64,000 nt of DNA from Myxococcus stipitatus (GCF_038561935.1 NZ_CP102770.1:930001-994000); one strand, 5' to 3'; shown: positions 46,154-62,236, counted from the stretch's first letter. Numbers and translations: made by a program. Notes: generated by a model from the sequence alone, not told the origin.

Positions 46154-47248
46154 ATGACTGCTCCACTAGCGACACCCGACACGACGGTCTCCGCGCCTGG
46201 CAGTGGCGCGGCGGCGGGCCCGGTGACACCTGCTGCTTCACCCTCGACGGGAGAGGTCTGGAGGAGGCGCCTGCCGGGGTTGGTGTTGGCGGCGGGCCTG
46301 GCGGTGGGGAGCTACTGGCTCGCCACGCTGCCGGGGCTGAAGGTGGTGGGGCCTCTGACGGTGGCGTTGTTGGTGGGCATCGCGCTGCGCTCGACGATGG
46401 CGGCGGGGATTCCCTCGGTGTTGGTGGAGGGGCAGCGCTACTCGGCGCGCACGGTGTTGCGGTTGGGCATCGTGCTGATGGGGGCGCGGCTGGACTTCGC
46501 GCTCGTGGCGAAGGTGGGGCCGAGGGTGTTGGTGTTGGCGATGGCGGTCATCGTCGGAGGCATCCTGGGCATCCGGTGGGTGACGCAGCGCTTCGGTGTG
46601 CCGGAGAAGCTGGGGACGTTGCTGGCGGTGGGGACGTCCATCTGTGGCGCGAGCGCGGTGGTGGCGGCGAGCTCCGTCACGCGAGCGGAGGAGGAGGACA
46701 CCACGCTGGCGGTGGGGCTGTGCGGGATTCTGGGGACGATGGGCGTGCTGTTCTACGTCTTCGTGGGGCCGCTGTTGGGGTTGACCACGGCGCAGCTCGC
46801 GATTCTCTCGGGAGCCACGTTGCACGAGGTGGCGCAGGTGATGGCGGCGGCGTTCACCTGGGGGACCACGGCGGGGGATTTGGGGACGCTGGTGAAGCTG
46901 ACGCGGGTGGTGTTGTTGGCGCCGGCGCTGGTGGTGCTGGGGTTGGTGTCCGGCTCGGGAGGGAAGGTGCGCTACTCGTGGAAGGAGCCGCCGATTCCGT
47001 GGTTCGTGCTGGGGTTTCTGGCGGTGGGAGTGCTCGGCTCGGTGGGAGTGGTGCCGGCGGCGGGGAAGGCCGCGCTCTCCACGGCGAGCGTCTTCCTCAT
47101 GGTGATGGCCATGGGGGCGATGGGGCTGGGGACACACGTCAGCATGCTGCGCCGTGCGGGCATGCGAGTGGTCTACGCGGGCCTCGTGGGCTTCGCCGCC
47201 TTGGCGCTGTCGGCCTGGGGCCTCATCCACCTGCTGTCGATTCAGTAG
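46154..47248 (+). CDS. YeiH-family putative sulfate exporter
   Basis: 364 residues, with about ten membrane helices after a Pro/Ser/Ala-rich N-terminus. Landmarks of the family are present: LRLGIVLMGARLDFALVAKVG, the TSICGASAVVAAS loop, GATLHEVAQVMAAAF and the C-terminal GTHVSMLRRAGMRVVYAGLVGF. The family is annotated as a putative sulfate exporter; transport is inferred from that. A ribosome site is weak. As the end of this sulfur cluster it could export the sulfite or sulfate made by the preceding enzymes. It converges with the McrC-like gene, overlapping by 26 bases. Confidence 0.8.
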   Translation: MTAPLATPDTTVSAPGSGAAAGPVTPAASPSTGEVWRRRLPGLVLAAGLAVGSYWLATLPGLKVVGPLTVALLVGIALRSTMAAGIPSVLVEGQRYSARTVLRLGIVLMGARLDFALVAKVGPRVLVLAMAVIVGGILGIRWVTQRFGVPEKLGTLLAVGTSICGASAVVAASSVTRAEEEDTTLAVGLCGILGTMGVLFYVFVGPLLGLTTAQLAILSGATLHEVAQVMAAAFTWGTTAGDLGTLVKLTRVVLLAPALVVLGLVSGSGGKVRYSWKEPPIPWFVLGFLAVGVLGSVGVVPAAGKAALSTASVFLMVMAMGAMGLGTHVSMLRRAGMRVVYAGLVGFAALALSAWGLIHLLSIQ

Positions 47249-48839
47249 TGAAGAGTGTGTGACGGAGCCACTCGATGAGCTCGGTGGGCGGCGACTGCCC
47301 GGGCGTCAGGCAGAAGACGCCCACGTGGTGCTCGTCGCGGAAGGACTTCTCGAACCAGGGCGCTGTCTGAGGGAGTCGCGTGGGAACGAGCAGCACCGCG
47401 CCCGCGCAACGTCCTTGTTCACCCATGTCTCGCCAGCGGAGTGAGTCGCGGTAGATGTGCGCGGACTCGAAGGCGTCGGCGATGCCTCGGGTGTCGGTGC
47501 GGTACTTTGCATCGAGACACAGCCAGCGCGCCTGGCCCACGTCAGGTTGCCACGTCACGACGAGGTCCGGACGCCTCGTCTTCGAGATGCTCCAGTGAGA
47601 ACTCCGCTTTCGCTCTCGCGTGAGGAACCCCGGGAACGAGAGGTTGAAGTGGAGGGTCAGGGTTCCGTGGCCCGGCCATCGCGCGGTGTAGCTGGCACCG
47701 TGAGGTGACTCGTCGAAGAGTCGAAGTGTGTCGGTGTTGTCTTCGCTCCACTGGGCGTCAGGGAGGAGCTCCGCCAGCAATCGCCGCAGCGCGAGGAATG
47801 TCCAGAGCTCGTAGAGCTCGTACGACGGCCGCACGGGGGCGGAGAGGTGAGCGTCGTCGGTGGGAAGCTGGAACCGAGGGGAGAGGAAGAGCTGGCCGAA
47901 GGCGTGGACCCGCGCATAGAGCGGGTCATCGACGAAGGTGAGGATCGCCGAGTCCGACGCGTACTCGGGCGTCATCGCGCCCAGCGGTGTTTCGAGCAGG
48001 AGCGCTTCGAGGTCATGGGCTCCTTGAACCAGCTGCCGCACGCGGCCCTTGCACCAATCCTCCAGGTCCGGGTCCAGTGACTGCGTCTTCTGGAGTCCTC
48101 GCTCGACACACTCCACGGTGTCTCGGAGCTTGAGCACCACCTGTCGTGTCAGCCACGCGACGTGGCGATTGGCTGCGTGGTCCAGGGCGCCCTGCCAGGC
48201 GCGACTGGGGACTCGTGGGACAGGGCCCGTGCCGAAGCTCTCCGCGTAGCCGCGGACACCTTGGTAGGTGTTCGGATGGCTCGCCAGCCAACGCAAGGTT
48301 CCTCGGTCTGCTTGTTTGACCGAGTGGATGGGGACCTCGGTCCAGAGCTCGACGGACTGCTCCTTGGGGGCACGGAGCACGGATGTCAGCGCGGCCTCGA
48401 ATGCAGGCACCAGGTCGCCGAGTACCGAGGCCACTCCCGCGATGTCGCAGCCCTGGTGTCCCACGCGTCCGTGCCGGCCTCCTTCCTGGCCAACCGTGGT
48501 GCCGGGCATCCAGGCGTCCAGGTCGCGCAGCAGATGAGCCCAGGCTTCGCTCTGGAGCTTGTTCTTGTGAGGGAGCACCTCTACGGAGAGGTGTTGCTCT
48601 CCCTGAGGGCCCTGGATGCGCAGCGATTGCGTCCCGACCCAGTAGCTCGTGCGAAGGGTGAAGCTGGTGGAGGCGGAGTCCCACTCCAGCTCCAGCTCAC
48701 CGAGCCAGCCGCGACACTCCACCTGCGCCGCTTCGCTCAGTTGAAGGGCGAGCTTGTAGGTCCGGTCCTCCTCCAGGACGACGACACCGTCCTGGATGAT
48801 TCCTTCGAGGTGACGACCTTTGGCATCCCGGAAGTGCAT
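47223..48839 (-). CDS. McrC-like nuclease (DUF2357 plus PD-(D/E)XK domain)
   Basis: The 538-residue protein has a DUF2357-type N-terminal beta domain and helical middle. A C-terminal restriction-endonuclease fold shows RRPDLVVTW (Asp about 423) and LCLDAKYR (Asp and Lys about 443-445), the PD-(D/E)XK catalytic set. Such proteins pair with McrB-like AAA+ proteins, as the gene just upstream does (one base between stop and start). Expected role: the nuclease of an McrBC-type restriction system directed at phage or modified DNA. Confidence 0.85.
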   Translation of the reverse strand: MHFRDAKGRHLEGIIQDGVVVLEEDRTYKLALQLSEAAQVECRGWLGELELEWDSASTSFTLRTSYWVGTQSLRIQGPQGEQHLSVEVLPHKNKLQSEAWAHLLRDLDAWMPGTTVGQEGGRHGRVGHQGCDIAGVASVLGDLVPAFEAALTSVLRAPKEQSVELWTEVPIHSVKQADRGTLRWLASHPNTYQGVRGYAESFGTGPVPRVPSRAWQGALDHAANRHVAWLTRQVVLKLRDTVECVERGLQKTQSLDPDLEDWCKGRVRQLVQGAHDLEALLLETPLGAMTPEYASDSAILTFVDDPLYARVHAFGQLFLSPRFQLPTDDAHLSAPVRPSYELYELWTFLALRRLLAELLPDAQWSEDNTDTLRLFDESPHGASYTARWPGHGTLTLHFNLSFPGFLTRERKRSSHWSISKTRRPDLVVTWQPDVGQARWLCLDAKYRTDTRGIADAFESAHIYRDSLRWRDMGEQGRCAGAVLLVPTRLPQTAPWFEKSFRDEHHVGVFCLTPGQSPPTELIEWLRHTLFTTESTAGG

Positions 48840-48840
48840 G

Positions 48841-51126
48841 TCACGACCAGAACCGGATGACGCCCGTGCGTGGGTTGTTGGCCTCCATCTGGCTCAGCTT
48901 CTCGCCACACCGCTTGAGGGACTCGGCCTCGCAGAGCTTCTTGAGGACCGTGAAAGCGGTGCGCAGCTCGGGGCTCGATTCGCCTCGGAGGCGAGGGAGG
49001 ACCTTGGAGAAGATTCCCTGGTCCAGCAGGCGGATTCGCTCCTCGGGGAGCGCCTCGGTGCCGGCGGCCTCCACGAAGGCGAGCAGCTCGCCCGCGGTGC
49101 GGTAGCCGAAGTGTCGACGAATGGGCCTCAGCGCCTGGTGGAGCGACTCGATGGTGCGCTCCAGCTCCGGCTGGCGTTCGGCCTGTCGGGCCTCGAAGAA
49201 GGCGCGGAGGTTGACGTCCCAGAACTCCAGGGTGAAGGCGCGGTCCAGCACCTTGTCGCTGAAGGGGAAGGTCGTCTCATCCATGTTCACCGTGCCCGCG
49301 ATGAACAGGTTTCGCGGCCAGGGGAGGCGATGCGGCACGCCATTGACGGGCGCGTCCTGGCCATGCAGTGCGATGGGAAGCCCGGACTCCATCGATGAGA
49401 GGAAGGGGGCGAAGTACTGCTCGACCCGCGCGAGGTTCATTTCATCGAGCAGCAGGAAGTAGGGCTTGGATGGGTTCTGCGCGGCGCTGAGCAACAGGCG
49501 GAGTGTGGGCTCCACCTGGAACGTCGGCGTCTCATGCAGGGCGTTGTAATAGCCGAGCAGTCCAGTGGGGTCCTTCCAGTCGGGAGAGACGGCCACGACC
49601 TCCAGATGCTTCTCCACATCCAAGTCCAATGCGGCGCAGTAGACGCGCGCGTAGTGCCGGATGAGCGCGGTCTTTCCCGTCCCCGAGAGTCCCGCGAGGA
49701 TGACGAAGCGCTTCTGAGGGGTACAGTGCCACGCGTGGTGGAGCGCGGTCAGTTGCGAGCTGTCGAGCACGAAGCTTCGTGTCTCGGCGTCCTCTTGGAA
49801 CCTCTGGCGCAGCGTACTCAGTCCAGGCCACGGGCGAGCAAGGGGCGCGTCGGAGGCGGATGCACCCTCTTCGGCGTGTCCTGCTTCGAGCTCTTCGAAC
49901 AAGGTGTCGGAGAGCGCGACCTCGGGGGGGCGAGTGGGGAGCTTCTGAGGCAACCGGGCCTCCCACGCCGCTCCATACTCACTGAGCCGGTACCTCCCAT
50001 CTTTCTCGCGGTCGAACAGGTCGAGGGCCCTGAGCCATGCCAGGTTCGAGGAGGGGGCCATCTCGCCTGTCCAGGCGGGGTAGAGCTCTTGATGGTAGCT
50101 GATGAGCTGTCCCCGGGTTCGCGGCTCGGCCTTCACGAAGCGCAAGATGGACGCGAGCGGGAAGACTCGTTCGAGCATCCGGTGAACCAGGACATCGGGC
50201 ACATCGCGCTCGAGGAGCTCATGGCCATCCTGGGTGGGGCGAAGGAGCTTGTCACGCTCCTCAACCAGCCCGAGTCCCGTGACTCGTGAGACGAGGCTTC
50301 GTCTCGACGACAGCGACAGGGCCTTGAACTCCTCCATGTCGCCAAGGTCTTCCACGAGGTCGCTGCGCGAGATGCCAGGGAGCGTGGCTTGAACCACATC
50401 GCGATAGGCTTCGATGAGGCGCTTGGGCGCGGCGTTGGCCTTGACCTGCTTTCCGTAGGGCCAGAGTGCGATGGGGTTGCCACGCTCGACAGGGACTGGG
50501 TTCGGCTGCGCCACGTCAAGTTGCCCTGACTTGATGGCTTCGTATCGTTCGTGGAGCCACCAGCAAAACACCGACCGGCGTACATGGTCGACCAGGTCTT
50601 GCTCGGGACCAAGTGCCTTTCGCAACCTGTCTCGAATGAGAATGTGATTGTGAGCGGTCCCTTTGGGCAACAGCAGGTCCGTGATGTTCTGCTGTGCTTG
50701 GTAGTTGAAGACGCAGTGGAAGTCGGAGGGGAGAAGCGCTGCGAAAAGGCGCCACAGGCGTGCTTGGGGGCGACGAGGCCCGTGTCGCGGCGAGACGAGG
50801 CCGAGGATGCGTTCCCCTTCCTCGGACATGACCACCGCGCGCTCGACGACTTCCGTAGGCCAGAGGGCATGCCGGAGGGTAACTATGGCGTCGACGACCT
50901 CTGGGTCGGTAAACGCCCCGCTGACCTTGACCGAGCCGCCCGGCCCCAAGGGCGTGATGGCATTCGCTGACCAGAGAAGCTCCTGGTTCTCTGGCCGGGC
51001 GAGTTCTGCGTCAGAGAGGCCACGAATCAGCATCAGCAAGTTGCAGTAGTTCTTCTGCCACTGCTCCCACCCTGGAAAAGGCTGGGCCTTCTCCCAGAGT
51101 TCCTGCACCTGCGCATCGGTCAGCAA
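48841..51126 (-). CDS. McrB-like AAA+ ATPase with a novel N-terminus
   Basis: A TTG start at 51126 is supported by AGGTGCC; 761 residues. The first ~220 residues are an unfamiliar domain (WEKAQPFPGWEQWQKNYCNLL, FAALLPSDFHCVFNYQAQQN). Two winged-helix-like segments follow, to about 420. The AAA+ domain carries Walker A GLSGTGKTAL at about 476-485, DEMNLAR at 559-565 and GTVNMDETT at about 611-619, the McrB signature. In McrBC this motor moves on DNA and activates the McrC nuclease; the N-terminus usually recognises the target. Sequence here is visibly less GC-biased than its surroundings, consistent with acquisition. Confidence 0.9.
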   Translation of the reverse strand: MLTDAQVQELWEKAQPFPGWEQWQKNYCNLLMLIRGLSDAELARPENQELLWSANAITPLGPGGSVKVSGAFTDPEVVDAIVTLRHALWPTEVVERAVVMSEEGERILGLVSPRHGPRRPQARLWRLFAALLPSDFHCVFNYQAQQNITDLLLPKGTAHNHILIRDRLRKALGPEQDLVDHVRRSVFCWWLHERYEAIKSGQLDVAQPNPVPVERGNPIALWPYGKQVKANAAPKRLIEAYRDVVQATLPGISRSDLVEDLGDMEEFKALSLSSRRSLVSRVTGLGLVEERDKLLRPTQDGHELLERDVPDVLVHRMLERVFPLASILRFVKAEPRTRGQLISYHQELYPAWTGEMAPSSNLAWLRALDLFDREKDGRYRLSEYGAAWEARLPQKLPTRPPEVALSDTLFEELEAGHAEEGASASDAPLARPWPGLSTLRQRFQEDAETRSFVLDSSQLTALHHAWHCTPQKRFVILAGLSGTGKTALIRHYARVYCAALDLDVEKHLEVVAVSPDWKDPTGLLGYYNALHETPTFQVEPTLRLLLSAAQNPSKPYFLLLDEMNLARVEQYFAPFLSSMESGLPIALHGQDAPVNGVPHRLPWPRNLFIAGTVNMDETTFPFSDKVLDRAFTLEFWDVNLRAFFEARQAERQPELERTIESLHQALRPIRRHFGYRTAGELLAFVEAAGTEALPEERIRLLDQGIFSKVLPRLRGESSPELRTAFTVLKKLCEAESLKRCGEKLSQMEANNPRTGVIRFWS

Positions 51127-51205
51127 GGCACCTGCTCCCTACCTATCTGCGGTTGCTGTTCTCGGATGGAAACGATGCCATGTCCCTTCGGACAGCGGCA
51201 ACCAC

Positions 51206-54200
51206 TCACGTCGTCGGGACTCCGAGTGTCCAGCGATTGCTGGTGTCATCCCAGTGTGCCACGCCATCATGGCGCCAGAGGTCCTGAGGTGCTTCGCGCG
51301 TCAGGACGAAGGCCGTCTCGCCAGGTCTGCGGTCCGCGACGCGAGTGTCGAGTCGAGGCCCATCACTGCCTGTGGATACGAGGAACAGGTGACCATCCTG
51401 TCGCCCCGTCTTGGGTGTCGTGGACAAGCCGAAGTGGTCCATGACCTGTGACTCCGTGAGCCGTGCACCTCGCGGTGGTGCGAGGCTCTCGGGTGTCAGC
51501 ACCTCGACCAGCTGGGCGATGGGCATGACGCCTTCGTTCACGTCCTTCGTGGCGTGGTCGGGATTATCGGACCGCAATCGCCACTGACCATCGGCACGGA
51601 CCAGCCGCTTCACTTGATAGGCATATCCCGCCGCGTCTGGCACCTGGATGAGCGCCACCTTGCCTTCGAGGTCCCTCGGCGAGAGGTCGCGGGCGTAGCG
51701 CATCACCAGCCAGTCTCCATCATGAATGGGGCGGTCTCCTCCATTCATCGAATCGCCTGACGCGCGCACCGCGAACAGTCCTTCACCTCTCGCTTGAATC
51801 GGCAGGCGCACCCACTCCGCTTCAGGGGCCTGCTCCAGCGCGAGTGCATGACTCGCGGCCCCTGCCGCGGCTCGCAGCGTCGGGAAGGAGATGCAGCCCA
51901 TGGGGCGTTTGAAGGCGAGCACCTCGGCTCGTACTGGCTCGACGCTCCAGCCATCCGCTCGCGGGGTGAAGCGCACACGGAAGGCCGTGCCTGGCTTCCC
52001 CGCGAAGTCGTCGAACCATCCTCTCAAGAGCTTCGAGAGCTGGTTCTTCTCCGCTCCAGCTGGCTTCGCGACGTTGACGGCGATCTTCACGAAGTGGAAC
52101 TGCCACGACTCACCGTTGGGGAGCCGAACCTGGGTGACACCCTGCGGGAGGTCGGGCCGCTGCTTCCGGTCCGGAAGCTTGAGGATTGGCGCGTGTTGGT
52201 TGGTGATGACCTGGGCCTCGAAGGGCATCCCGGGCCCTTGCGACTGGCTGAGCTGCCGTCGGCGGTACTGCGCCAGGCGGTACTCGACCAGCTCTCGGGT
52301 CATCTCCTCGAACGCTTCCCGAGCGTCCTCGGTCAGCACGAAGCGCGGGGCGAACCTGTCTCCCTCCACTCGGAACCACTTCCCGTCCTGCGTCCATTCG
52401 TGGACTGGGAGCGAGTTGTCGAGTGCTTCGACCCCTTCGATGTCCCGAAGCAGCTCGGGATTGCGCCGCAGGATGGACAGGCTCCGCTGCGTCAGCTCGG
52501 ACAAGGACAGTCCTCGCTCCAGTGCATCCGCTTCGAGCAATGCCTCCAGCATCACCATCTTGATGCACTTGCTCATGGGCGTGAGCTCGAGATTCCGGAA
52601 CCACGCCGGGTCCTGCTTCAGGGCTCGGGACTGCGCGTCCGTGAGGTCCTTCTCCGCCTCCACGAACTGGAACCAGCCAGAGTGCTCGTCATGCCTGCTC
52701 AGTGACGCGGGCGCGTAGCCCAGCCGGTACAGCTCCCCGATGGTAGGGCGCTGACCCCGGCTGTCTCGCAGCTCGCGGTAGATGCGCGCGACCTCTGTCT
52801 CACCTGTCGCCAGGAAGTGGCGCAGCAGCTCCTTCGCTTCGACCTCCACCTGCACGGAACAACCCGGAGGCAGCTCGGGCTGCTTGCCATGCACCAGGAA
52901 GTCTCGGAGTGACATCGCCCCTCGGCCGAGCGCCAACAGCGTGCGCACCCGGTCGAGGAACAAGCGATGGTTGCCCACGAAGTCGATGACCGTGACGCGG
53001 GTCTTCCCCTCGAACTTGCGCAGTCCTCGGCCGAGCTGCTGAAGGAAGACGACGGGAGACTCCGTGGGGCGCAGCATCACCACGCGGTCGATGCTCGGCA
53101 CATCCACGCCCTCGTTGAAGAGGTCCACCGAGCACACCGCGTCCAGCGTTCCCGCCGCCAGCTCTCGCAGCGCCTGCGCTCGGTCCGCCGAGCCCGGCCC
53201 CGAATAGACCGCCGCGACCCTCACGCCCTTCTCCTTCAGCCACCGCTGGACATAGTTCGCATGGGAGACCGAGACACAGAACACGAGCGTCCTGCTCGCC
53301 GCGTGCTCCTCCCAAGCCCGCCACAGTGTCCGCATCCGCGCGTCCGTCTGGACCGCTTGCGCCAGGGCCTCCGGCTCGAAGCTCCGGCTGCGCCAGGGGA
53401 TGTTCTCGTAGGGCACGTCATCCTTGAGCCCCAGGTACGCGAACGGTGTCAGCAAACCCGCTTCGATGCCTTCCCCCAGGTCCGCCCGATAGGCGAGGTG
53501 GTCATCGAACAGCCCCAGGATGTCTCCATCATCCGCGCGCTCGGGCGTCGCCGTCAGCCCCAGCAGGAACGTCGGCTCCAGCCGCGAGAGAATCACCCGA
53601 TAGCTCGCCGCCGCGGCGTGATGCACCTCATCCACGATGACGTAGTCGAAGCGCGCTGCTCCCCGCAGGGCTTCCAGTCCATCGCGATTCGACAGCTTCT
53701 GCACCGAGGCGAACACCACATCGCCTTCGAGCGAGGACTTCGCGCCCACGTACCAACCAAAGCGCAGCCGAGGAAACTGACGACGAAAGGTCTCCGCGGC
53801 CTGGACCAGCAGCTCCTCGCGGTGGGCCAAGAAGAGGACGCGTGGCGGGACCTCCTGCTCGGCATGGAAGGCCGCCACGTCCATGGCGGCCAGCAGCGTC
53901 TTCCCCAGCCCCGTCGCCAGTACCACCAACGCACGCCGACGACCTTCCTCCCGACTTCGCGCGAGAGCGCGCAAGGCCTCGCGCTGAAGCACGTGTGGCT
54001 CGCGAGGCGGAACCACCGGCTCCACTTCGACGGGCGCGAGCGTCCGCTGCGTGAGGCTCGCGCGACGTGCATAGGCCTCCACCCAGTCCGCCTCCAGCGG
54101 CGTGGCCCGTTCCCACCACGCCTCGAAGGCTTCGACCACTTCACCCCAGGCCCGAGGGTCCCGGCCCTGCTCGACGCGCAGGTTCCACTCAATGCCTGTC

Positions 54201-54988
54201 TTCAGCGCGGAGCGGGAGATGTTGCTCGAACCCACGTATGCCACCGCGAGCCCATCCCCCACGAACCGCCAGGATTTGGGATGGAACGAGGACACGCGCT
54301 CCTTCTCCACCTCCACGATGCGGGCCTCGAAGTGTCCTCGGCTTCCGCCTTGGAGCACGCTGTCCTCGTCCATCCAATCCAGCAGGCGTCGCAGCGCCTC
54401 CGCCTGGGTGATGGTCAGGTAGTCACCCGTGAGGATTCGCACCCGCGCGCCTCGCAAGAGGGCTGCGTCCACGGATTGCCGCAACACTTCCAATCCACTG
54501 TCCTGCACGAACGCCGCGAGCACCGCGATATCCGTCGCGCGCGAGAACAGCGGCTCGAGGTGCGAGAGGAACGGGTCTCCCAATCCCCCCGTGGCGAGCG
54601 GCTTCGCCTGTGGCGTGGCCAGGTAGTTCCCCTGGTGGGGGATGACATGCCGGACGCCACCGCGCGCGTCCGCGACGTCCCCCTGGAAGCGGGGAATGAC
54701 ATGCACATGCAGGTGGAACACCGTCTGCCCGGCCGCCGCGCCCACGTTGATGCCCAGGTTGTACCCATCCGGGCGCAGCTCCGTGTCCAGGCCCTGCTTC
54801 ACCTCCTCCACCAGCTCGAAGAGGGCGCGCTGTTCCTCGGCCGTGGCGTCGAACCAGGTGGCGACCGGGCGGCGCGGAACCACCAGGGTGTGCCCCGGGC
54901 TCACCGGGAAGCCGTCTCGGATGGCGAAGGCCAGCGTGTTCGAGGCGACCCACCGGGATTCAGGAATCAGCAGGAAAGGGGAGGACAC
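51206..54988 (-). CDS. HIT-PLD nuclease-SF2 helicase-S24 peptidase fusion protein
   Basis: A 1260-residue protein from a GTG at 54988. Domains in order: HIT (HLHVHVIP, triad at 92-96); a phospholipase-D-type nuclease module at about 130-275 with HPK at 236-238 and GSSNIS at 253-258; an SF2 helicase from about 330, with ATGLGKT at 358-364, DEVHH at 453-457, GLTATPER and QLGRGLRKFEGKTRV. A ~300-residue region follows, then an S24/LexA-like peptidase domain: Ser1080 in RASGDSMNGG and Lys1127 in YQVKRLV, the self-cleavage dyad of LexA and UmuD. Helicase plus PLD fits nucleic-acid defence; HIT and S24 suggest nucleotide sensing and regulated self-cleavage. This is inference. Confidence 0.88.
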   Translation of the reverse strand: MSSPFLLIPESRWVASNTLAFAIRDGFPVSPGHTLVVPRRPVATWFDATAEEQRALFELVEEVKQGLDTELRPDGYNLGINVGAAAGQTVFHLHVHVIPRFQGDVADARGGVRHVIPHQGNYLATPQAKPLATGGLGDPFLSHLEPLFSRATDIAVLAAFVQDSGLEVLRQSVDAALLRGARVRILTGDYLTITQAEALRRLLDWMDEDSVLQGGSRGHFEARIVEVEKERVSSFHPKSWRFVGDGLAVAYVGSSNISRSALKTGIEWNLRVEQGRDPRAWGEVVEAFEAWWERATPLEADWVEAYARRASLTQRTLAPVEVEPVVPPREPHVLQREALRALARSREEGRRRALVVLATGLGKTLLAAMDVAAFHAEQEVPPRVLFLAHREELLVQAAETFRRQFPRLRFGWYVGAKSSLEGDVVFASVQKLSNRDGLEALRGAARFDYVIVDEVHHAAAASYRVILSRLEPTFLLGLTATPERADDGDILGLFDDHLAYRADLGEGIEAGLLTPFAYLGLKDDVPYENIPWRSRSFEPEALAQAVQTDARMRTLWRAWEEHAASRTLVFCVSVSHANYVQRWLKEKGVRVAAVYSGPGSADRAQALRELAAGTLDAVCSVDLFNEGVDVPSIDRVVMLRPTESPVVFLQQLGRGLRKFEGKTRVTVIDFVGNHRLFLDRVRTLLALGRGAMSLRDFLVHGKQPELPPGCSVQVEVEAKELLRHFLATGETEVARIYRELRDSRGQRPTIGELYRLGYAPASLSRHDEHSGWFQFVEAEKDLTDAQSRALKQDPAWFRNLELTPMSKCIKMVMLEALLEADALERGLSLSELTQRSLSILRRNPELLRDIEGVEALDNSLPVHEWTQDGKWFRVEGDRFAPRFVLTEDAREAFEEMTRELVEYRLAQYRRRQLSQSQGPGMPFEAQVITNQHAPILKLPDRKQRPDLPQGVTQVRLPNGESWQFHFVKIAVNVAKPAGAEKNQLSKLLRGWFDDFAGKPGTAFRVRFTPRADGWSVEPVRAEVLAFKRPMGCISFPTLRAAAGAASHALALEQAPEAEWVRLPIQARGEGLFAVRASGDSMNGGDRPIHDGDWLVMRYARDLSPRDLEGKVALIQVPDAAGYAYQVKRLVRADGQWRLRSDNPDHATKDVNEGVMPIAQLVEVLTPESLAPPRGARLTESQVMDHFGLSTTPKTGRQDGHLFLVSTGSDGPRLDTRVADRRPGETAFVLTREAPQDLWRHDGVAHWDDTSNRWTLGVPTT

Positions 54989-55128
54989 CGCGACACCCTA
55001 GCCCAGCCCCCTCGCCCCTCGGACACACCCGCCGTGTGGAGAGGGGGCGAGCGGACGTCTTCTCACGAAGCCGGGTGCATCGAGTGCCCGGGGCGGGGTA
55101 GACAGGGGGCTCGGAGGGTTGAAACGAG

Positions 55129-55671
55129 ATGGACGCGAACGCAGTGGCGGAGCTGGAGAAGGCGGGCGTGAAGGTCGATGCCCCGGACCGGCTGTTTGTC
55201 GCCGTGGAGTGGGATGAGAACCAGCGCGTGATTCCCGTGGGCGCTCGCGCCCAGGTTCGCGCCGGCGAGCAGCTCGCGCACGTCCACCTCCAGCCCATCT
55301 CCAAGCTGTGGACCGGCGACACGAAGCCCCCCAGCTTCGCCAAGACCCCCCCCCTCGAGTACCACCCGTTCTTCATCCTCATCGAGGCCACCGCCGCCGG
55401 CTACTGCCGCGCCGTGCGCAACACGGAGACGGACCAGGAGTTCGAGCGGCTCTACCGCCACCTGGTCCGCCGCCCCGACGGCACCGACCGCAACCCCCTC
55501 TTCTCCTATCTCCAGGGCGCCGTCCGCCTCTACATGTCCCTGCGAGACGTCAGCCAGGCGGAGTTCGAGGCCGTCGTCCTCCGCCTCCACCAGTCCGCCA
55601 GGCACCACCAGACCCACGTCGGAAGCATCAACTACTTCCAGGACGTGCTGCGCGGCGTGCTCGGCGCTTGA
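55129..55671 (+). CDS. Conserved-looking hypothetical protein
   Basis: ATG 55129 lies 11 bases after GGAGGG. The 180-residue product has an N-terminal beta-rich half (DAPDRLFVAVEWDENQRVIPVG, LAHVHLQPISKLWTGD) and a helical C-terminal half (DVSQAEFEAVVLRLHQSARHHQTHVGSINYF). It is soluble, with no signal peptide. It is divergent from the fusion-helicase gene across a GC-rich inverted repeat (55006-55013 and 55041-55048). I do not recognise the family. Confidence 0.7.
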   Translation: MDANAVAELEKAGVKVDAPDRLFVAVEWDENQRVIPVGARAQVRAGEQLAHVHLQPISKLWTGDTKPPSFAKTPPLEYHPFFILIEATAAGYCRAVRNTETDQEFERLYRHLVRRPDGTDRNPLFSYLQGAVRLYMSLRDVSQAEFEAVVLRLHQSARHHQTHVGSINYFQDVLRGVLGA

Positions 55672-58882: not shown

Positions 58883-60514
58883 GTGCGCCTGTCTCGTATC
58901 TCTTTCGCTTCAAAGCTGATGTGTGTCGCGTGGTTGGTGGGGTGTGGCGCTGGCCCCGGCGAGTCCGGAGGGCCTCCGGCCGTGGGGGTCGAATCCCCCG
59001 GGGACGGGACGTGGATGGGGGCTCCCGTCGCGGAGGGCTGCGCGCCCGATGGAGGCCCCTCCCCGGACGCGGGGCCGCCTCCCGATGGCGGGCCCGGACC
59101 CGATGACAGCGTCCTCGTGACGAACACCACGCGCTTCCACACGGCGGTGGGAATCGCCGAGCGCCCCGGGGACCTGGCGACGAATCCCCCTGAGATTCTC
59201 GTGTTCGACGGCGCCCGGTTCCTGGCCATCCAGGGCACGCCGTCCCCCGAGGGCCTGCGCTTCAAGGGCGTGCCCCAGGGGCCGTACTACCTGAACGCGG
59301 GCGGACGCTATGTCGTCACCGACGCGAGGCAGGTGGAGGTGGGCTCCAACCGCCTGGGCCGGCCGGACGCGGTCTATGCCGAGGTCGGTGGCATCCAGTC
59401 CCTGAACCTCAACCTGTCGAACCTGGAGCCGTGGAGGCGGGGGTCCATCCTGGAGCTCGCCTCGGCCCAGGTGGACATGAGCGGCGACGTGTACGTTCCC
59501 GCGGAGGCGCTGCCCGAAGGTGCCATCTCCCTCAACTTCGACGGGGCCTCCTACTCCTCCTACACCGGGAGCCGGTTCCCCCTCTTCGAGTCGGCGTACC
59601 GGGACCGGCTGTATGTCAATCAGCTCAGCCCGTCCTCCGCGGGGACGCTGCCGGATGGACGGCCGCTGACGTACACGGCCCTGACGCGCTCGGTGGAGGT
59701 GGGGACGTTCGACTTCCTGCCGGATGGGGCCTCGCCGATGCCTGTCACGGCGCGGCTGCAGCCCGCCCCCGTGCGTGAGTTCCCCCTCGAGTGGCGCCTG
59801 CCCCAGTTCACCCCCTTCGCCACCCAGGCGCACCCGCGCGCCGAGCATTCCGCCAACACGTTCAGCCTCCTGCCGGCGGCCCATGGCGTGTCGGAGGGCT
59901 GGATTGGCTACTCCGGGACGCTGCTCACGCTGCGCCCGCCCGCGGCGCCCATGGCCAACGTCACGACCCGGCTGCGGTTCGGCAATCCCTTTCCGTCGAA
60001 CTGGGGCGTCGTGGCCATCGCGAGCGCCAGCTATCGCGTGATGGAGCCGGTGCCGGATGGCTCGGGACGTCTCCTCAGGCTCTCCGCGTCGAACGTCGTG
60101 CACGACACCCTGGACAACGTCATCGCGGGCCCCGTGGTCCCGCGCGTGTCGCCGCCCCGCTCGCTCACCATCGACGGGGTGCCGGCGAGCACGCCGCGCG
60201 TGGTGGGGACCGCCAGCCCCGTCATTGCCTGGGAGCCGCCCGCGCTCGGCACGCCCTCCGCCTATCGGGTGCGTCTGAACCGGTATGACCGCGAGGCGGG
60301 CCTCGTGCTGAATGTGCGGTTCGTCGACGTGCCCGGCTCCATCACCCAGGTGCGGCTGCCTCCCGACATGTTGCTGCCCGGGAGCATCTACTACCTGAAC
60401 GTGACGGCCATCGAAGCACCTGGGTTCGACGTGAAGCGGCGTCCCTTCAGGACGAACGAGACACTGCCCCATCACAGCTCCGACGCCATCAGCTCCCTGT
60501 TCACCACGCCCTGA
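58883..60514 (+). CDS. Surface/outer-membrane lipoprotein, paralog 1
   Basis: GTG 58883 follows GGGGGA; 543 residues. A signal peptide with lipid Cys (AWLVGC) leads to an Asp/Gly/Pro-rich stretch (GAPVAEGCAPDGG, PDAGPPPDGG). A carboxypeptidase-regulatory-like beta domain follows (FKGVPQGPYYLNAGGRYVVTDARQVEVG), then several beta-sandwich segments ending in IAGPVVPRVSPPRSLTIDGV, VAWEPPALGTPSAYRVRL and SSLFTTP. The tandem paralog downstream shares this whole plan. Probably a surface-exposed lipoprotein; the fold family is not recognised. Confidence 0.8.
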   Translation: MRLSRISFASKLMCVAWLVGCGAGPGESGGPPAVGVESPGDGTWMGAPVAEGCAPDGGPSPDAGPPPDGGPGPDDSVLVTNTTRFHTAVGIAERPGDLATNPPEILVFDGARFLAIQGTPSPEGLRFKGVPQGPYYLNAGGRYVVTDARQVEVGSNRLGRPDAVYAEVGGIQSLNLNLSNLEPWRRGSILELASAQVDMSGDVYVPAEALPEGAISLNFDGASYSSYTGSRFPLFESAYRDRLYVNQLSPSSAGTLPDGRPLTYTALTRSVEVGTFDFLPDGASPMPVTARLQPAPVREFPLEWRLPQFTPFATQAHPRAEHSANTFSLLPAAHGVSEGWIGYSGTLLTLRPPAAPMANVTTRLRFGNPFPSNWGVVAIASASYRVMEPVPDGSGRLLRLSASNVVHDTLDNVIAGPVVPRVSPPRSLTIDGVPASTPRVVGTASPVIAWEPPALGTPSAYRVRLNRYDREAGLVLNVRFVDVPGSITQVRLPPDMLLPGSIYYLNVTAIEAPGFDVKRRPFRTNETLPHHSSDAISSLFTTP

Positions 60515-60586
60515 CGTCGGGTGGCCGTGGGTGTGTGAAGTCTTTCGTTGTGACCATTGAAAAGTCTCTCATCGAGTGGAGATGTC

Positions 60587-62236
60587 ATGCATTTGCCGAG
60601 GAAGTCTTGGGTCTTGGGGGCAGCGTGTGCCTCGTGGCTGGTGGGGTGCGGCGCCAGCCCGGGTGATTCGAATGAGTTCCAGGATGGGGTGACGCCGGTG
60701 GTGACGGACCCCAGCGTTCCTGGAGATGGGACGTGGATGGGGGAGCCCGTCACGGAGGGCTGCGCGCCCGACGCGGGTGTTCCCTCGGATGGTGGGACGC
60801 CGACGGACGCGGGCACGCCGAGCGACGTGGTCTTCGTGAAGCGCCTCACGCGCTTCCACACGTCGGTGGGCATCGCCGAGCGCGCCGAGGACCTGTCGGC
60901 GAACCCGCCCGAAATCATGGTGCATGACGGGGCCCGCTTCCGGGTCATCCAGGGCTCCGCCGCGCCCGGGGGCTGGCGGTTCTCGGGCGTGCCCGAGGGC
61001 AGCTACTACCTGAGCTCCGGCACCCGCTACGTCGTCACCGATGCGCGCGAGGTGGACATCGGCACCAACCACATCGGCCGGCCGGATGTCGTCAATGTCG
61101 AGACGGGCAATGGCGGCTCGATGCCGCTCCAGCTCAACCTGCTGAACCTGGCGCCGTGGCAGGTGGGGACGCGGCTGCACCTGAATTCCACGCAGGTGGA
61201 GTTCCAGGGCGAGGTGTCCCTCTTCGAGGATGTTCCGCTGGGGTCGACCTCCCTCAACACCAGCGCGGCGGACTTCTCCTCCAGCGTGGCGATGACGCTC
61301 CCGGTGCTGGAGGGGGACAAGGGGGACCGCTTCTACGTCAACCAGGTCAGCCCGTTCCCCGCGGGGCGCACGCCGGACGGCAGGGCGCTGACGTACTACG
61401 CCGTGGACCGCTCGCTGGAGGTGGCGCCCCTCGACTTCGTCCCGGATGGCTTCTCGCCGCTGCCCGTCACCGGGCGGCTCATGCCGGCGAAGGTGCGGGA
61501 GTTCCCCATCGAGTGGCGCCTGCCCACCTATGCGCAGTGGACCTCGGAGGTCCACCCGAACGCCCAACCCTCTTCGGCCAGCTTCTACGTCTCGCCGACC
61601 CCGTACGGCGTGGATGAGAGCTGGCTGGGGTATGCCGGTGAGCTGCTCTCCCTGCGCATCCCCTCGGGCTCCCTCTTCGACTACACGGGCCGGCTGAAGT
61701 TCGGCAACCCGTACCCGGCGAGCTGGGGCGTCCTGAGCAACATGTCCTTCACCTACCGGGTCACCGAGACGGTGCCGGACGGCTCGGGCCGCTCCGTGTC
61801 GCTGTCCGCGACGAACGGCGGCTTCGACACGCTCGACAGCGTCATCGCGGGTCCGGTGGTGCCGCGGGTGTCTCCGCCTCGGGTGCTCACCATCGACGGG
61901 CTGAAGGCCAGCACGCCGCGCGAGGTGGGGACGGCCAGCCCCGTGGTCGCGTGGGAGCCTCCCGCGCTGGGCGCGCCCGACTCCTACCGGCTGGGCCTCT
62001 TCCGCTACGACACCAGCCTGGGGCTGACGATGCCCGCGGGGTACATCTACATGCCGGGCTCCGTGAACCAGGTGCGGCTGCCTCCCGACATGCTGCAGCC
62101 GGACAGCATCTACTTCCTGCGGCTGACGGCCGTCTCCGCGCCGCGGTACGACCCCAAGCGCAGCCCGTTCAAGTCGCTGGACCGGATGCCGCACTACAAC
62201 GCGGACGCCATCAGCTCGCTGTTCACCACGCCGTGA
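60587..62236 (+). CDS. Surface/outer-membrane lipoprotein, paralog 2
   Basis: ATG 60587 is supported by GGAG five bases upstream and gives 549 residues; a longer TTG start is less likely. It is collinear with the gene before it: lipid Cys in WLVGCGASPGD, shared GDGTWMG and TEGCAPD, HTSVGIAERAEDLSANPPEI against HTAVGIAERPGDLATNPPEI, SPPRVLTIDGLKAS, and the same ending DAISSLFTTP. It lies 72 bases after the first copy and was therefore made by tandem duplication. No copy of the 28-bp repeat lies before it, so it relies on read-through or a separate promoter. Confidence 0.8.
   Translation: MHLPRKSWVLGAACASWLVGCGASPGDSNEFQDGVTPVVTDPSVPGDGTWMGEPVTEGCAPDAGVPSDGGTPTDAGTPSDVVFVKRLTRFHTSVGIAERAEDLSANPPEIMVHDGARFRVIQGSAAPGGWRFSGVPEGSYYLSSGTRYVVTDAREVDIGTNHIGRPDVVNVETGNGGSMPLQLNLLNLAPWQVGTRLHLNSTQVEFQGEVSLFEDVPLGSTSLNTSAADFSSSVAMTLPVLEGDKGDRFYVNQVSPFPAGRTPDGRALTYYAVDRSLEVAPLDFVPDGFSPLPVTGRLMPAKVREFPIEWRLPTYAQWTSEVHPNAQPSSASFYVSPTPYGVDESWLGYAGELLSLRIPSGSLFDYTGRLKFGNPYPASWGVLSNMSFTYRVTETVPDGSGRSVSLSATNGGFDTLDSVIAGPVVPRVSPPRVLTIDGLKASTPREVGTASPVVAWEPPALGAPDSYRLGLFRYDTSLGLTMPAGYIYMPGSVNQVRLPPDMLQPDSIYFLRLTAVSAPRYDPKRSPFKSLDRMPHYNADAISSLFTTP

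Follow-up and report, generated by a model that had tools for sequence, protein, structure and literature searches.

A LexA-type self-cutting domain normally serves bacteria to sense DNA damage, and in LexA, lambda CI and UmuD it switches transcription or a polymerase. What keeps restriction enzymes from attacking host DNA that is damaged or re-synthesised has been worked out chiefly in Type I systems, whose motor is degraded by ClpXP. In the alleviation of EcoKI this external protease destroys HsdR: the host is protected post-translationally after DNA damage or repair, and the process is not an SOS function (PMC11109961). The closest described system for the present locus is SauUSI of Staphylococcus aureus, a Type IV restriction enzyme: its C-terminal SRA domain reads 5-methylcytosine and activates a translocating ATPase, and its dimeric PLD nuclease shreds DNA (PMC7913695).

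We compare these systems with a gene of Myxococcus stipitatus. Our best reading of this gene is a restriction enzyme of the SauUSI family that contains a switch of the LexA type, and no description of such a fusion was found in the open-access literature.

The gene and its nuclease-motor core

The window, that is, the whole stretch of 64,000 nucleotides that was analysed, contains the gene at 51206..54988 on the minus strand. It is a single open reading frame that runs from a GTG start at 54988 to a stop at 51206 and encodes 1260 amino acids (about 141 kDa), while the plus-strand reading of 51206-54988 is interrupted by stops. The chain is a fusion of HIT, PLD, SF2, coupler, B3-like, S24 and SRA-like parts, all of whose coordinates below refer to the minus strand. 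A previous reading of the same DNA, made from the sequence alone, had picked out a set of motifs, and all of them recompute to the same residues: HLHVHVIP starts at 92, HPK at 236, GSSN at 253, ATGLGKT at 358, DEVHH at 453, RASGDSMNGG at 1075, giving Ser1080, and QVKR at 1125, giving Lys1127. This sequence-only reading missed the identity with SauUSI, the Ala-Gly site and two domains, one B3-like and one SRA-like.

Above the Pfam cut-offs are HIT (1.2e-25, residues 11-102), ResIII (1.6e-33, residues 333-484), Helicase_C (1.3e-13, residues 557-657) and Peptidase_S24 (7e-11, residues 1041-1152). The PLDc_2 match (1e-4, residues 170-292) is weak and below the cut-off; the alignment with SauUSI spans the same HxK...GSSN residues. 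Indeed, the top match in the PDB is SauUSI (7clg), with an E-value of 8e-77 over residues 113-821, and PADLOC labels the protein a Type IV methyl-directed REase (5.8e-99). The aligned pairs include FHPK/GSSN with FHAK/GSSN, the Walker A motifs, DEVHH with DEAHR, and TATPER. We have little doubt that the protein is a SauUSI-type enzyme.

Its core consists of a PLD nuclease domain at residues ~146-310 (54059..54553), with HPK at 236 and GSSN at 253 facing the FHAK...GSSN of SauUSI; an SF2 motor at residues ~326-690 (52919..54013), recognised by Pfam and by the same alignment, with Walker A at 358-364 and DEVHH at 453-457; and a coupler at residues ~691-905 (52274..52918), which is helical in the model described below and whose N-terminal part is aligned to SauUSI up to residue 821. 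The two enzymes thus share a nuclease, a motor and a coupler in the same order, aligned catalytic motifs, and a C-terminal reader of SRA fold. In contrast, SauUSI is without HIT, B3-like and S24 domains, and the SRA domain here is compact and carries no Pfam DUF3427 signature. Within the same phylum, ordinary SauUSI-like paralogues carry a DUF3427 reader and lack both HIT and S24.

The HIT domain occupies residues 1-110 (54659..54988; Pfam 1.2e-25). The fold is present with its HxHxH triad, here HLHVHV at 92, and the triad is kept in most relatives; the domain probably handles a nucleotide or an adenylated by-product. Among 20 loci of HIT-less SauUSI-like paralogues, a neighbouring HIT or Nudix gene is not routine: there is a HIT gene in one locus (L111) and a possible Nudix motif in another (L104). 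The former, at L111:8128-8532, is a stand-alone gene whose product is 54% identical to the fused HIT, two genes away from the HIT-less SauUSI-like gene.

The C-terminal half and its predicted cleavage site

An AlphaFold model of residues 691-1260, built with 32 relatives, has a mean pLDDT of 85. Residues ~919-1025 (51914..52234), which have no Pfam match, form a B3-like DNA-binding domain: several independent plant B3 structures are found by VIA alignment at Z values of 7.0-6.4 (TEM1 7.0, ARF5 6.6, VAL1 6.5), which are modest and scored within the larger model, so that the domain is assigned at the level of the fold only.

The chain ends with a compact SRA-like domain at residues ~1171-1260 (51209..51478; pLDDT 88). 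When the last 100 residues are modelled alone, SRA domains take up almost all of the best 40 VIA rows, with Z values of 6.2-3.9; they include ScoMcrA, SUVH6, UHRF1, MspJI and PvuRts1I, and the TRD of SauUSI (803-945) at 5.8. The sequence itself has no match to DUF3427, and a comparison of profiles is weak, with a probability of 16-25%. Since this comparison is too weak, we do not claim DUF3427 for the C-terminus on sequence grounds, and the assignment leans on the fold and on a distant fusion, L153. DUF3427 is present in relatives L153, L052 and L053; in L153, HIT, PLD and motor are followed by S24 at 1118-1243 and then directly by a full DUF3427 at 1252-1391 (1.2e-17). Together with the models, this order places the S24 domain between the B3-like domain and a modified-base reader. 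With no detectable DUF3427 signature, the compact SRA domain may no longer read modified bases. Many relatives, such as L043, L046, L047, L049 and L051, continue past the SRA-like domain with about 130 additional amino acids (RVVGRA..GGLRIDGG..ERTVSL..) or about 300; this extension has no Pfam match and is absent from the window protein.

We now come to the S24 domain, of the LexA/CI/UmuD autoprotease type, at residues ~1030-1167 (51488..51901). In addition to Pfam and a LexA profile, it is identified by its structural neighbours, LexA and lambda CI, at VIA Z values of 14.0-12.4, and structures of CI, LexA and UmuD determined with RecA filaments are among its best matches. The match starts at residue 73-75 of LexA, which means that the cleavage region is included. 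By sequence profile, Ser1080 (51749..51751) and Lys1127 (51608..51610) align with the two catalytic residues, Ser and Lys, of LexA from M. tuberculosis. The motif RAAAG, at residues 1039-1043 (51860..51874), contains the scissile bond predicted from conservation and LexA spacing, Ala1042-Gly1043: Gly1043 is 37 residues from Ser1080, a distance equal to that in the LexA of the same genome. The domain thus resembles LexA, lambda CI and UmuD in its fold (Z about 11-14), its Ser-Lys dyad, and an Ala-Gly or Cys-Gly dipeptide 33-41 residues before the Ser. It differs by its location inside a restriction enzyme, and from LexA by a Ser-Lys spacing of 47-48, which is longer than the 37 of LexA.

All 33 aligned relatives share AAAG, Ser and Lys, while the linker on either side of the site is variable. 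A broader census draws in part on a contig scan of 84,980 species that is biased, its search patterns having included AAAG or the Ser motif. Of the 53 fusions in this sample whose site can be read, 51 have [RKQ]AAAG and two, both distant, have RVACG. This pair came from a profile search of 195 genomes in which the motif was not required; Cys-Gly is the bond cut in UmuD. The Ser is kept in 53/53, and the Lys wherever it is covered (one alignment column off in the two RVACG rows). The presence of the catalytic pair in relatives was a check proposed with the sequence-only reading, which comes through it unharmed. The kinase-fused copy in L038 has lost Gly, Ser and Lys together, as expected if these residues serve one reaction. 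From these sequence patterns, we consider it probable that the S24 domain cuts its own chain.

The protein of L038 (5828-9130, minus strand) is a fusion of PNP_UDP_1, protein kinase, B3-like, degenerate S24 and SRA-like domains, in which the C-terminal module seen here is joined to another effector (PNP-like plus kinase).

Neighbourhood, distribution and history

Directly downstream of the gene, on the same strand, lie an McrB-like AAA+ gene of 761 amino acids (48841..51126; PDC-M26A, 1.6e-37) and an McrC-like gene of 538 amino acids with DUF2357 and PDDEXK_7 by Pfam (47223..48839). As these are the only recognisable defence neighbours, the "defence island" of the sequence-only reading is overstated, and a three-gene defence cluster is a better description of the window. 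Orthologues in the same spot (L041, L042, L044) have no McrBC, or have McrC with other genes replacing McrB, so the fusion is independent of the pair, which is associated but not required. The association is not random, however, since the pair also comes directly after the fusion in the distant L079 and L083; it is adjacent in three unrelated lineages. Other relatives adjoin Hma-, Zac- and type I restriction-like genes. An obligate partner gene is ruled out, since none recurs across 34 loci.

The CoCoNuTs also come to mind: McrB/McrC-like genes are adjacent, and CoCoNuT type III-C also pairs a PLD nuclease with a helicase (PMC11090510). Their helicase, however, is SF1 UPF1-like, whereas the motor here is SF2 (ResIII/Helicase_C), and McrBC is here a facultative neighbour, absent beside many orthologues. 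On both counts, we reject a CoCoNuT or another described McrBC-associated system.

Some observations concern the surroundings. Positions 47223-55671 of the window are a variable spot with conserved flanks, w38 on one side and w34 or w29 on the other, in which the fusion of relatives is accompanied by McrBC or by other genes, or stands by itself. At 58883-62236 the window holds a pair of paralogous ORFs side by side, of 543 and 559 amino acids, with lipoprotein-like N-termini, which are kept in neighbouring genomes. In a Polyangiaceae MAG, a DUF4062-AAA-NWD1-like protein (L069:8760-11573) comes right after the fusion gene and is a possible conflict-system neighbour.

A strong relative is found in 60 of the 147 genomes of the class, about 23 of them near full length, and most of the 41 loci of the contig scan (84,980 species) have the full-length architecture, a recurrence beyond chance. 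In the wider scan, Polyangium, Sorangium, Nannocystis and Enhygromyxa also turn up, as do MAGs labelled Planctomycetota, Holophagales and Pseudomonadota, labels that may be wrong. The architecture recurs across the Myxococcota; a few MAGs that bear the labels of other phyla have it too.

In a tree of the PLD-motor core, the HIT-type proteins group in a single clade (100/99), and so do the S24 proteins, with 36 members (100/99). L153, which has S24, and three relatives without it fall outside the S24 clade (93/80): S24 was thus either gained once and then lost, or gained twice. The HIT-PLD-SF2-B3-DUF3427 proteins without S24 (L052, and L053, in which no HIT is detected) are a sister lineage in the motor tree, with the same N-terminal fusion and a B3-like region; they differ in the absence of S24 and in their full DUF3427 reader. 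Viral spread of the C-terminal module was considered and rejected: viral contigs have no relatives of it, and the plasmid matches are UmuD only. Two copies are damaged, one by a 493-aa ORF between two gene halves, with the break near the S24 domain (L055, genome G047), the other by a split over three frames (L054, genome G015), so that the system is lost in some strains.

A proposed internal switch and its direction

The proposed mechanism borrows from SauUSI. The C-terminal readers, SRA-like and probably also B3-like, would allow the SF2 motor to act on modified DNA of foreign origin, which the PLD nuclease would shred. On damaged host DNA with RecA filaments, Ser1080 and Lys1127 would cut their own chain at Ala1042-Gly1043, leaving a HIT-PLD-motor-B3 fragment of about 117 kDa and an S24-SRA fragment of about 24 kDa. 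The SRA reader being severed from the nuclease-motor, restriction would be off and the chromosome spared: an intramolecular restriction alleviation. In Myxococcus such a trigger is available, since RecA1 of M. xanthus promotes the self-cleavage of LexA (PMC9705874). Control by an SOS box was considered and ruled out, none being found near the gene. The whole reading, namely a single-chain, ATP-driven, modification-dependent restriction enzyme that resembles SauUSI and carries a LexA-type switch whose cut is stimulated by RecA and most likely turns the enzyme off, has in our estimate a probability of about 0.4.

The direction of the switch is where we part from the sequence-only reading. Its nuclease-motor defence protein with an intact and, by sequence, probably self-cleaving S24 domain stands; its claim that the enzyme is kept off until cleavage is not supported in that form. 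Worked out as an on-switch, this idea would have the motor-nuclease held in check by the S24-SRA tail until a RecA-triggered cut, during phage-induced DNA damage, frees an active HIT-PLD-SF2-B3 nuclease that destroys the phage DNA or the cell. UmuD and phage repressors provide precedents of S24 cleavage that releases an activity, and some relatives do lie near other defence genes, for example of Hma- and Zac-type. Moreover, the B3-like domain would remain on the nuclease fragment, where it could still target DNA, and this weakens the off reading. However, a nuclease set free without restraint at each SOS event would be costly, and the cut would part the motor-nuclease from a reader that in SauUSI activates the ATPase and does not inhibit it (PMC7913695), so that severing it is likelier to mean a loss of function. 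Given cleavage, we lean towards off, by analogy with SauUSI, and consider the release of an active nuclease unlikely.

There is also the possibility that the S24 domain folds and dimerises without cutting in cells, as a dimerisation or RecA-docking part in which AAAG is structural. The S24 domains of LexA and CI do dimerise, and AlphaFold, in one static model, draws LRAAAGAAS as a helix rather than an extended cleavage loop. This would leave unexplained why Ser, Lys and the P1-P1' residues are conserved jointly, why Ala changes to Cys in two distant members only, and why all are lost together in the kinase-fused copy; we hold it, too, to be doubtful. Least probable, in our view, is a cut triggered by target binding, by a nucleotide at the HIT domain or by a phage product, as a limit to one round of restriction or as an alarm. 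S24 cleavage is intrinsic and RecA merely stimulates it, and a nucleotide-binding HIT domain sits on the same chain. The LexA-like IrvR is a reported RecA-independent case (PMC7101444). Against such a trigger speak the RecA-filament structures of CI, LexA and UmuD, which are among the nearest to this domain.

Returning to the off-switch with RecA as its trigger, its parallel with EcoKI (PMC11109961) lies in protecting the host after translation, with the difference that the protease would be intramolecular. We tentatively propose that this conserved family provides the first known restriction enzyme with its own SOS-type self-destruct, in which RecA filaments would lead directly to loss of restriction with no protease partner and no transcription. 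If this is true, restriction alleviation would take place within the enzyme, without a ClpXP-like external protease; a Type IV enzyme that carries its own LexA-type switch would solve the problem of self-restriction by itself, and SOS signalling and DNA immunity would be connected at the level of proteins.
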